Origin: Methanohalobium evestigatum Z-7303
GTDB lineage: Archaea; Halobacteriota; Methanosarcinia; Methanosarcinales; Methanosarcinaceae
Length of the DNA stretch: 64,000 nucleotides
Reading direction: 5' to 3'
Assembly (NCBI RefSeq): GCF_000196655.1
Contig: NC_014253.1
Location: 2,001,423 to 2,065,422 of the forward strand
The stretch's first letter is position 1; the number at the start of each line of letters is the position of its first letter. The notes beneath the pieces were generated by a model. That model did no database searches. It was not told where the DNA came from and saw nothing but the letters and a program-made list of their open reading frames with translations. Shown here one piece after another: positions 31,009 through 59,389 of the stretch. Position numbers and translations under genes: made by a program.

Positions 31009-31139
31009 TAAACAGTATCTATCACCCTTTTTTTATAATTATTTAACCAAAATTTTTTTATAGTATCACTGACAATTGGAATAATGGTTCAAACTTGAAC
31101 GAAGTAATAATAGGGGACATAACGCAAGGAGTGGAGACT

Positions 31140-31544
31140 ATGGCACGTGGTATAATCAGATGGGATCCAGTAGAAGATATAACACGAGCACTGGATAAAT
31201 TTGCACCGGGTGGAGAAATGCTTGCTGGAAGAACATTAGCTCCGCTGGTAGATATCAAAGATGATGATAACAACATTATAATCAACGCCGATTTACCGGG
31301 AGTTAATAAAGAAGACATTGATATAACGGTCAGTGATAACACTGTACAGATTAATGCAAAATGTAGTAAAGAATCCACTGAAGAAGTATATTACAGGCAG
31401 GAACGTACCTATGAAGGATTCTCAAGAACTATAGTATTACCAGAAGCAGTTACTGAAGAAGGTGCAAGTGCAAAACTTGAAAACGGTGTACTAAAAGTTA
31501 CACTACCCAAATTAGAAAAAGAACATAAAATAACCGTACAATAA
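31140..31544 (+). CDS. Small heat shock protein Hsp20 (copy 1)
   Basis: An alpha-crystallin-type chaperone of about 134 residues that holds unfolding proteins. The ATG at 31140 (MARGIIRWDPVED) is preferred because AAGGAGTGG ends 6 nt before it. The alpha-crystallin domain runs from about residue 35: 'APLVDIKDDDNNIIINADLPGV', 'RQERTYEGFSRTIVLPE' and the C-terminal 'LENGVLKVTLPK'. A TATA-like TTTTTTATAG lies about 80 nt upstream. First of three tandem hsp20 genes and the most divergent. Confidence 0.92.
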   Translation: MARGIIRWDPVEDITRALDKFAPGGEMLAGRTLAPLVDIKDDDNNIIINADLPGVNKEDIDITVSDNTVQINAKCSKESTEEVYYRQERTYEGFSRTIVLPEAVTEEGASAKLENGVLKVTLPKLEKEHKITVQ

Positions 31545-57550: not shown

Positions 57551-57608
57551 AATATCCCCCTTTATCAAACTATCCTACAATAGTATTATACTTTTCCCTT
57601 TCTTATTG

Positions 57609-57704
57609 CATGACCGGTTAAATCTATTATTTATGGTCATGAAATAGCAATACATGTTCACAAAATTCCATTAATTGATAAAATTGTGAACATAGGTTAT
57701 ATCT
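57609..57704. promoter_or_regulatory. Double-operator region upstream of rubrerythrin and the hairpin tract
   Basis: Two perfect inverted repeats lie in the gap: CATGACC/GGTCATG (57609-57615 and 57635-57641) and ATGTTCACAA/TTGTGAACAT (57654-57663 and 57684-57693). The second is followed at once by GGTTATATC (about 57695-57704), a TATA-like element reading rightwards. A regulator bound there would sit on the promoter of whatever is transcribed to the right. Confidence 0.45.
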
Positions 57705-57724
57705 ATTTGTCCATTGATATATAC

Positions 57725-57945
57725 AGATTGGAGATATAAAAACTGAGTTATAAAATCTCCCTGAAAAACGGAAAAACGGTTTGCTCCATTGTTGGATGGG
57801 CTCACTCCTCTTGCCCGTAAAACAAGTTGGATGGTGAAAAACGGAAAAACGGATGTTTAAGACTATACCCCCATAGTCTGATACCCCACTCCTCGCGAAA
57901 CAGGGTAAAGTCCCTGTTTCCGACTATTCTTGCTCTTATTTTTAA
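57725..57945 (+). ncRNA. Candidate non-coding RNA with two imperfect repeat units
   Basis: No convincing ORF fills 57551-58044. Within it: hairpin GGAGAT/ATCTCC (57730-57735, 57755-57760); TGAAAAACGGAAAAACGG at 57762-57779 and again at 57835-57852; CACTCCTC at 57803-57810 (in a GGGC/GCCC loop) and at 57887-57894 (between hairpins); AGACTAT/ATAGTCT (about 57860-57879); and GAAACAGGG/CCCTGTTTC (57897-57905, 57912-57920). A TATA-like element precedes and a U-rich CTTATTTTT (about 57935) follows. The exposed CACTCCTC is complementary to Shine-Dalgarno-type GGAGTG. RNA status, strand and ends are inference. Confidence 0.4.
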
Positions 57946-58044
57946 AATAATAATCACTCTAATTTTTATAGGAATTCAAGGGGAAATTATATATATAAGA
58001 ATATTGATGCTGTACTTCTTCACCAAGGATGCGGGGTGTACCAC

Positions 58045-58326
58045 ATGGATGACAAAAAAAATAACTTAGAACACCTGCTCAAAAACCTCATAAGATATCG
58101 GAATGGGTACTTAGCGTTTGAAGAGCTGGAGTACAGCATCAAAAAAATGATCCACAAATCCAATTCAGAGTTTATCGAAGATGAACTACCCTGTATTCTC
58201 TATACAATAAGGTTCTATCCTAACAGAATCGATATAATAAACAAAATTATTTCTTATATAGAAATTGAATTGTGGAATACAGAACTTAAACAGTATTCAC
58301 ATGATCTGATTTATATGGGTCAGTGA
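58045..58326 (+). CDS. Hypothetical protein (93 aa), 3' end within an IS605-type right end
   Basis: ATG at 58045 is preceded by GGGGTG (58033-58038) and a TATA-like AATTATATATATAAG about 50 nt upstream, so expression is plausible. The product is helical and charged ('NNLEHLLKNLIRYRNGYLAFEELEYSIKKMI'). No family recognised. Its TGA at 58324-58326 falls at the right end of the decayed tnpB element, so the native C-terminus may have been replaced by the insertion. Confidence 0.5.
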   Translation: MDDKKNNLEHLLKNLIRYRNGYLAFEELEYSIKKMIHKSNSEFIEDELPCILYTIRFYPNRIDIINKIISYIEIELWNTELKQYSHDLIYMGQ

Positions 58327-58500
58327 ACTACCGCTAAGATGAAGACTCAACAGCTTCGGAAGAAGTTTACCAGGAAAGTCTTACTCTTTAAATCAAAGAT
58401 TTAAAGATATTTGTAAATTTTCAATTTACAAAGTTCTTCCAGGAGAGTTCACATCCCCACTATCGACTATCCTTACAAGGGAATCGCCGATTACCTTTCT
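58324..58500 (-). mobile_element. IS605-type right end with hairpins (omega-RNA-like region)
   Basis: Downstream of the tnpB remnant on its strand lie two perfect hairpins, CTTTAAATC/GATTTAAAG (58386-58406) and TTTGTAAAT/ATTTACAAA (58410-58432), and the terminal sequence reads GCGGTAGTTCAC on the minus strand (58324-58335), very like archaeal IS200/IS605 right ends. In active elements this region is the omega RNA used by TnpB as guide. Here the protein is broken, so activity would need a TnpB in trans. Confidence 0.55.
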
Positions 58501-59283
58501 TATGATGACTGGAAGATACCTCTCTTAGGTCTTTTACCCAAATATTTCTTATGTTTTTTGATGGGTTCCAAAGCCAGTGCATCAACTTTACTGGTATAAG
58601 CCTCATCTACTTCTTGATACTTTATACCATGATATTCACACTTAGAAGCTAATTTCTGTTTAAATCTATCAAACGGTATAGTCTGGAAGTTCTGGGTGTC
58701 TTCCTTGCCAATATTTTGTTCTTGTTTTATTTCTTTCAGCTTTCCAATCACGACATTACCTATCCGATTTTCCAGACAGTGTTTAACGACGTGATTGACA
58801 CACTGGTTCATGAAATCGTTTATCTTCCAGAACCTCTTCATTGTGAATTGGTTCATCTTCAGACCATCATCCAGATCCTGTTTATCATAGACTGACTGTA
58901 ACCTGCTCTTCTCCTTGTTCCACCAGCGGTTGTAAGATTTGATACCCCTGCCATCTAATATGAAGGCAGTCACGCAGGTCGCAAAATTGTCTACGCCAAG
59001 ATCTCGAGAGATGCCTATTATAATCAAGTCCTACATCTTCTCTATATTCATGGTAAACGTATTCTATCTCGAACCATCTACCTTTGTATTTCGGTATTAT
59101 CCTGACCATACTGATATATTTACCAATTATATTATCAGGAATCTTGAAATACAGATACCTGGTTCCTTATGTTTTATAATAATCTAAACCTAAAGACAAT
59201 CTGATTTTGTCATCAATAACTTTCAGTTGATCTTTCTTAAATACACATAAGAAGTTGCCGTCTTTATCCAGATATTTAGGGGC
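58440..59283 (-). pseudogene. tnpB: Decayed IS605-type tnpB
   Basis: Readable TnpB segments with lesions, from 5' to 3' on the minus strand: N-terminal half missing; 'PKYLDKDGNFLCVFKKD' (from 59280); an in-frame stop (TAA) after 'LGLDYYKT'; 'IPKYKGRWFEIEYVYHEYREDVGLD' in one frame; a frameshift near 59027; 'IIGISRDLGVDNFATCVT' (RuvC I Asp) and 'YTSKVDALALEPIKKHKKYLGKR' in a second frame, ending at 58500; then 'RKVIGDSLVRIVDSG' in a third frame after a deletion that removes the NADVNGA block with the RuvC III Asp. It cannot encode an active nuclease. Confidence 0.85.
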
Positions 59284-59389
59284 ACTGTTCAGTTAAGACA
59301 ATTTTTCACCTGATTTACAGCTCTAAATCATTATTCTAAGAAATAATAAAAATCTAAAGTGGATTAATATGTTCCATTAACTGAACAGT
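59284..59389. mobile_element. 106-bp element with 13-bp terminal inverted repeats (MITE-like)
   Basis: ACTGTTCAGTTAA (59284-59296) and TTAACTGAACAGT (59377-59389) are perfect inverted repeats bounding 80 bp of AT-rich non-coding DNA. The left end coincides with the point where tnpB homology stops. The ends resemble those of IS6-type elements from memory; no transposase and no target-site duplication were seen. The following 98 nt up to the tRNA hold nothing recognisable. Confidence 0.55.

Follow-up and report, generated by a model that had tools for sequence, protein, structure and literature searches.

To our knowledge, few archaeal small RNAs (sRNAs) have known targets, and we know of no established general archaeal sRNA partner like bacterial Hfq. 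Among bacteria, the staphylococcal UCCC-loop sRNAs expose C-rich loops that are proposed to pair with ribosome-binding sites (RBSs). The closest archaeal precedents come from Methanosarcina mazei, in which sRNA154 and sRNA41 mask RBSs (PMC5867862) and sRNA162 masks an RBS via its single-stranded linker (PMC3510493).

The locus that we describe lies in a window of 64,000 nucleotides, the whole stretch of DNA that was analysed, from Methanohalobium evestigatum. Our comparisons give good support to its reading as a member of a previously uncatalogued family of stand-alone small-RNA genes. Like the window RNA, sRNA162 and sRNA171 are described as intergenic archaeal sRNAs of similar length (191 nt), with three stem-loops and with paralogous copies that have their own promoters (PMC3510493). 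The resemblance to sRNA154 lies in an intergenic RNA with two loops, one of which carries an anti-RBS sequence that, in sRNA154, blocks glnA2 translation; the resemblance to sRNA41 would lie in its described masking of several RBSs of polycistronic mRNAs, which represses their translation (PMC5867862). The exposed C-rich loops have a bacterial parallel in mycobacterial B11, for which pairing with RBSs is reported to be proposed as well (PMC12395582, PMC10470900). There are differences as well. The published homologs of sRNA162 are from M. acetivorans and M. barkeri only, unlike those of the window family, and sRNA162 is not known to carry octamer tracts such as those of the window RNA. sRNA154 is controlled by nitrogen via an NrpR operator (PMC3177094), which sets it apart from the window RNA, and homology to it is ruled out: its M. 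mazei locus (L139), which we found through a published primer, has neither a AAAAACGG tract nor CUCC or CCCC in the transcript region. The bacterial sRNAs with C-rich loops have no octamer linkers, unlike the window RNA, and we do not claim homology with them.

Architecture of the tract

The gene-free interval that holds the tract measures about 467 nt (57569-58035), rather than the 490 nt given when the locus was first pointed out. Its elements, in window coordinates, are the following.

57654-57663 and 57684-57693, no strand: 10-bp inverted repeat ATGTTCACAA-N20-TTGTGAACAT, 100% complementary, 5' of the putative promoter block
57695-57712, + strand: TATA-like putative promoter block GGTTATATCTATTTGTCC, the strongest conservation 5' of the RNA, in 6/6 copies
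57722-57945, + strand: predicted sRNA transcript, from the conserved extent in paralogs
57730-57760, + strand: 5' hairpin GGAGAUAUAAAAACUGAGUUAUAAAAUCUCC, which folds in the three variants tested at -5.0 to -8.2 kcal/mol
57762-57779, + strand: first octamer tract, TG(AAAAACGG)2, in full-length copies
57780-57834, + strand: unit 1 hairpin with apical loop UCACUCCUCUU, -17.9 kcal/mol, in 4/6 copies
57803-57810, + strand: anti-SD-like CACUCCUC in the unit 1 apical loop; across the full-length copies, it or its variant is unpaired with a probability of 0.99-1.0
57835-57852, + strand: second octamer tract, TG(AAAAACGG)2; one octamer tract precedes the ACCCCC hairpin in 6/6 copies
57858-57880, + strand: hairpin AGACUAUACCCCCAUAGUCU presenting ACCCCC, near-invariant in the six copies and the best conserved element
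57881-57897, + strand: C-rich linker GAUACCCCACUCCUCGC, unpaired probability about 0.5-0.8
57898-57921, + strand: terminal hairpin GAAACAGGGUAAAGUCCCUGUUUC with a U-rich stretch, -14.2 kcal/mol, z = -5.9

The original prediction described most of this layout correctly. The palindrome is found just 5' of the TATA-like block, the 18-nt repeat TGAAAAACGGAAAAACGG is exact in both octamer tracts, the four hairpins are where they had been placed (57730-57760, about 57785-57831, about 57858-57880 and 57898-57921), and a U-rich stretch follows the last of them. CACTCCTC does occur twice, once in the 11-nt apical loop of unit 1 (57803-57810, unpaired probability 1.0) and once between hairpins (57887-57894, about 0.5).

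The position of the TATA-like block, that of an archaeal box A, suggests that it is a promoter, and we infer from it that transcription would start at about 57722-57724, some 25 nt 3' of the block. The predicted sRNA would then comprise a structured part up to 57921 and a U-rich tail to about 57945. The stem of unit 1 (about 57785-57831) has internal loops. The ACCCCC hairpin folds at -6.7 kcal/mol (z = -5.6) and leaves ACCCCC unpaired with a probability of 0.85-1.0. In the window copy, the C-rich linker between this hairpin and the terminal one, also written GAUACCCCACUCCUC, holds CACUCCUC at 57887-57894, where other copies have ACACCUC or CCACCUC. The fold of the whole 226-nt tract has an energy of -56.3 kcal/mol (z = -2.98), which none of 200 shuffles matched, and z of the single hairpins ranges from -2.0 to -5.9. 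AAAAACGG is found 11 times in the window when 2.15 are expected (0/100 shuffles); CACTCCTC alone is mildly unusual there (4 vs 1.0 expected).

Since the 10-bp inverted repeat is single in the genome and is not kept in the paralogs, where only its right half (TGAACAT-like) persists, it is, judged by sequence, not part of the conserved unit. It has no second occurrence anywhere in the genome and is thus also ruled out as the operator of a regulon.

Several other identities could be dismissed. A scan of the tract against Rfam gave no family above the gathering threshold, only tRNA, which rules out a known Rfam family, and the lack of any reading frame common to all copies rules out a small-protein gene. 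A viral origin is ruled out because the ACCCCC hairpin is unmatched in viral contigs, and plasmid records held no match to any of the tract. The octamer strings were not found as whole words in the literature searched, which was mainly that outside subscription journals and supplements, and the Methanosarcina octamer loci may already be listed among the M. mazei sRNAs.

A family of dispersed copies

The tract is one of four copies in the Methanohalobium genome, according to a BLAST search of the DNA of this genome and 59 relatives. Three are chromosomal and one is on the 164-kb replicon; outside the window, the 2.24-Mb contig has copies at 365.7 kb and 1659.4 kb, and the 164-kb contig has one at 140.2 kb. 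A sister species has two copies, in the gene contexts of the window copy and of the 1659-kb copy. A covariance search had been suggested as a check of the original prediction; a model built on the six copies (R1) gave exactly six matches at E of 1e-22 to 1e-46 among the 186 genomes of the order, namely the four copies of the genome itself and the two of the sister species, and it matches the window at 57730-57921 with 232 bits.

The similarity between paralogs starts at the putative promoter and stops after the terminal hairpin, with unrelated flanks on both sides. The copies are about 10-20% diverged, with promoter and loops conserved, and all of them keep the TATA-like block, the 5' hairpin, the AAAAACGG tract(s), the ACCCCC/ACCCUC hairpin, the C-rich linker, and the terminal hairpin. 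Between the window and the sister species, identity is 92-100% over 57700-57945 vs 55% over 57600-57650; the spacer 3' of the tract is also well kept, at 90% or more at least. In the six-copy alignment, 98.6% of the stem cells are paired (96.7-100% in the 5' hairpin), with pairs that hardly vary among copies too similar to each other. One pair, in the terminal hairpin, has changed on both sides, which 253/500 shuffles also reach, so there is no excess of covariation, and covariation speaks neither for nor against the fold. The terminal hairpin folds in the divergent plasmid and 365-kb copies as well, substitutions notwithstanding.

Unit 1 and one octamer tract are missing together from the 1659-kb copy and from one of the two sister-species copies. 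This is the outcome expected of a deletion between the two 18-nt repeats (or, the other way round, of an insertion there), and the 18-nt repeat is therefore the boundary of a module. The tract had been thought 'tandem or dimeric', which holds in part: there are two octamer tracts and unit 1 comes or goes as a whole, but the sequence of one hairpin unit is not that of the other.

The neighbourhood of the window copy includes, 3' of the tract, a conserved 96-aa ORF (58036-58326, + strand) with its own TATA-like stretch and with no Pfam or NCBIfam match. Beyond it, on the - strand (58460-59290), is a degraded IS605-type TnpB gene with OrfB_IS605 and Cas12f1-like_TNB domains. The 1659-kb copy has a TRAM-domain gene next to it, upstream and on its own strand, and an Hsp20-like gene nearby (L013, 2878-3090 and 1489-1752).

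The tract could in principle be a cis-acting leader or riboswitch of the 96-aa ORF, which is co-linear with it and has a conserved counterpart in the sister species (L014); in three genomes (G046, G109, and G086), what look like the leaders of multiheme cytochrome genes also contain an octamer tract. We nevertheless regard this as very improbable. The ORF is preceded by a TATA-like stretch of its own (about 57984-58000), the tract closes with the terminal hairpin and U-rich tail some 90-110 nt 5' of the ORF, and the 365-kb, 1659-kb, and plasmid copies are each followed by a gene that points toward the RNA. The convergent genes after these three of the four copies rule out such a leader for the family and argue for an RNA gene that stands on its own rather than the leader of an mRNA. 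Together with the TATA-like block conserved in all copies, they point to an independent intergenic gene.

The dispersal of the copies, one of them on the 164-kb replicon, and the TnpB remnant nearby (58500-59027, PF01385) might instead suggest a non-autonomous mobile element or a remnant of the IS605-type element, and a match to a transposon end had been raised as an objection to the original prediction. The objection fails. The shared segment ends without a terminal inverted repeat and the TnpB remnant is missing from the sister-species locus, which keeps the RNA; these two observations rule out an IS605/IS200 element or a MITE. The divergence of the copies around a conserved promoter and loops, and the presence of the window and 1659-kb copies at the same place in both species, also speak against mobility, which we consider extremely improbable as an explanation.

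The sRNA reading has as its observed basis a dispersed, non-coding family with a common promoter block, a conserved structure, and the modular loss of unit 1. The proposed non-coding regulatory RNA has good support from paralogs that have promoter and structure in common, from the high identity of the tract between the two species as against part of the adjoining spacer, from the lack of a conserved frame, and from the convergent genes.

Putative action on ribosome-binding sites

The best explanation overall, and one that we consider rather probable, is a structured trans-acting sRNA of about 200 nt that masks RBSs. Its own promoter would drive the transcription of an RNA of this length with a hairpin at either end, the 5' one probably protecting the 5' end and the 3' one ending the transcript or protecting its 3' end. 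The C-rich single-stranded motifs CACUCCUC, ACCCCC, and ACACCUC would be displayed in loops and linker, and would most likely pair with purine-rich RBSs of trans-encoded mRNAs, lowering their translation. The AAAAACGG tracts would be A-rich linkers between the hairpin units, to which an RNA-binding protein may bind. ACCUC is also found within the archaeal 16S rRNA anti-SD (AUCACCUCCU).

Because single-stranded parts of sRNAs mask RBSs in the related M. mazei, we infer by analogy that RBS masking by the C-rich loops is the most likely mode of action. With the 62 predicted RBSs of the window, the loops give a mean pairing energy of -7.96 vs -7.32 (sd 0.43) for shuffled loops, a difference that is not significant. 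The action on RBSs that had been proposed for this RNA is plausible in view of the M. mazei precedent, yet as a set the window RBSs pair no better with the real loops than with shuffled ones, and the partners there are candidates only. They include the hsp20 RBSs (-15.5 and -20.0 kcal/mol) and the sufBD RBSs (-16.5 and -16.9 kcal/mol). The GGAGTG reported ahead of an Hsp20 gene is present, in the RBS AAGGAGTGGAG of the gene at 31095-31544 (PF00011, E = 4e-23). The best window partner of the ACCCCC hairpin is the RBS GGGGGAUAU of the adjacent divergent rubrerythrin gene (-11.9 kcal/mol); the rubrerythrin GGGGGATAT is present in the sister species too. Since C-rich loops suit any purine-rich site, specific targets cannot be named.

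Octamer tracts in other genera

The strict 16-mer (AAAAACGG)2 has 87 matches in 32 of the 186 genomes of the order, vs 3 in 3 for the reversed control; these counts rest on the strict 16-mer, the gapped pattern being left out because some arrays have 18-nt, possibly coding, periods. Several octamer loci resemble the window RNA, with a promoter, a short 5' hairpin, octamers, a C-rich linker, and a terminal hairpin. One Methanosarcina locus (L153) reads ...AACAAGTTTTATAAAGACTTGG(AAAAACGG)2GACTCCCAATTGATTAACCCC..., and the promoter-hairpin-octamer block is found in 13/31 Methanosarcina genomes. Three loci of genus g11 (L023, L083, and L087) have octamer pairs between hairpins with loops AACCCC and AACACCUC. 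Model R1 matches octamer loci in three genomes (G011, G111, and G163) at per-genome E of 7.5e-4 to 5e-3. Much of this score comes from the octamers, so common descent with the window family is not demonstrated. The same grammar recurs in Methanosarcina and g11, with a likeness in sequence established for the octamer alone.

These loci bear on two further explanations. The AAAAACGG tracts might titrate an RNA-binding protein, as a sponge or scaffold in the manner of CsrB/RsmZ for CsrA in bacteria, with the C-rich loops being secondary. The recurrence of tandem tracts at non-coding loci in several genera of Methanosarcinales, far above the reversed control, would fit such a role, as would the 2 to about 20 octamer units right after the 5' hairpin, whose sequence is kept while their number varies. 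On the other hand, the C-rich loops of the window family are conserved at least as well as the octamers, octamer variants (AAAAACAG) exist, no binding protein is known, and A-rich linkers could merely space the hairpins; we think this explanation unlikely. The octamers could also act at the level of DNA, as short satellites or protein-binding repeats, the hairpins being incidental. Short satellites are abundant in Methanosarcina (PMC6749651), and the octamer arrays of this genus and of g11 expand in a similar way. Yet the octamers are a small part of the window family, whose conservation extends to promoter, hairpins, and loops, all on one strand and in a fixed order, making this quite improbable.

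The trans-acting sRNA that we favour might belong to a wider class across genera of Methanosarcinaceae, in which AAAAACRG tracts would alternate with C-rich anti-SD-like hairpins or linkers (ACCCC, ACACCUC, CUCC), the octamers would be bound by an archaeal RNA-binding protein, and the number of units would set the strength or the target range. We offer this as a tentative and rather doubtful extension.

Other loci deserve mention in their own right. Genus g11 has a separate multicopy sRNA-like family in which the linker TGATCCAACCCC joins two hairpins (L104, L108, L111-L114, L116, L118, L119, and L121-L125). The linker precedes the terminal hairpin, and the stem before it has two pairs with compensatory changes; these come from a subset of an alignment in which stems are misaligned and which gives no consensus structure overall. 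The related g11 loci that we scanned had no Rfam match. In another family of the order, octamer dimers lie where multiheme cytochrome c genes appear to have their leaders (L018, L020, and L021, from G086, G109, and G046, respectively). In G046 and G109, the cytochrome gene is preceded by octamers together with a hairpin, GCUCUAU/AUAGGGC, that resembles part of the window RNA. GGAAAAACGGTTTGCTC is exact in Methanohalobium and G046 only, among 394 genomes of the phylum. In three Methanosarcina loci (L090, L042, and L047), the (AAAAACRG)n arrays are very long, reaching about 20 units, and in most cases come straight after the 5' hairpin. A Cdc6/Orc1-like gene also opens with two AAAAACGG octamers (G000:C1:1204966-1204992; L092:967-993).

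Implications

A multicopy and modular sRNA family whose octamer is also found in the tractable Methanosarcina would offer the octamer as a bait for proteins and C-rich loops that can be mutated. Such a family could also account for some of the short satellites between Methanosarcina genes, which would then be parts of RNA genes.
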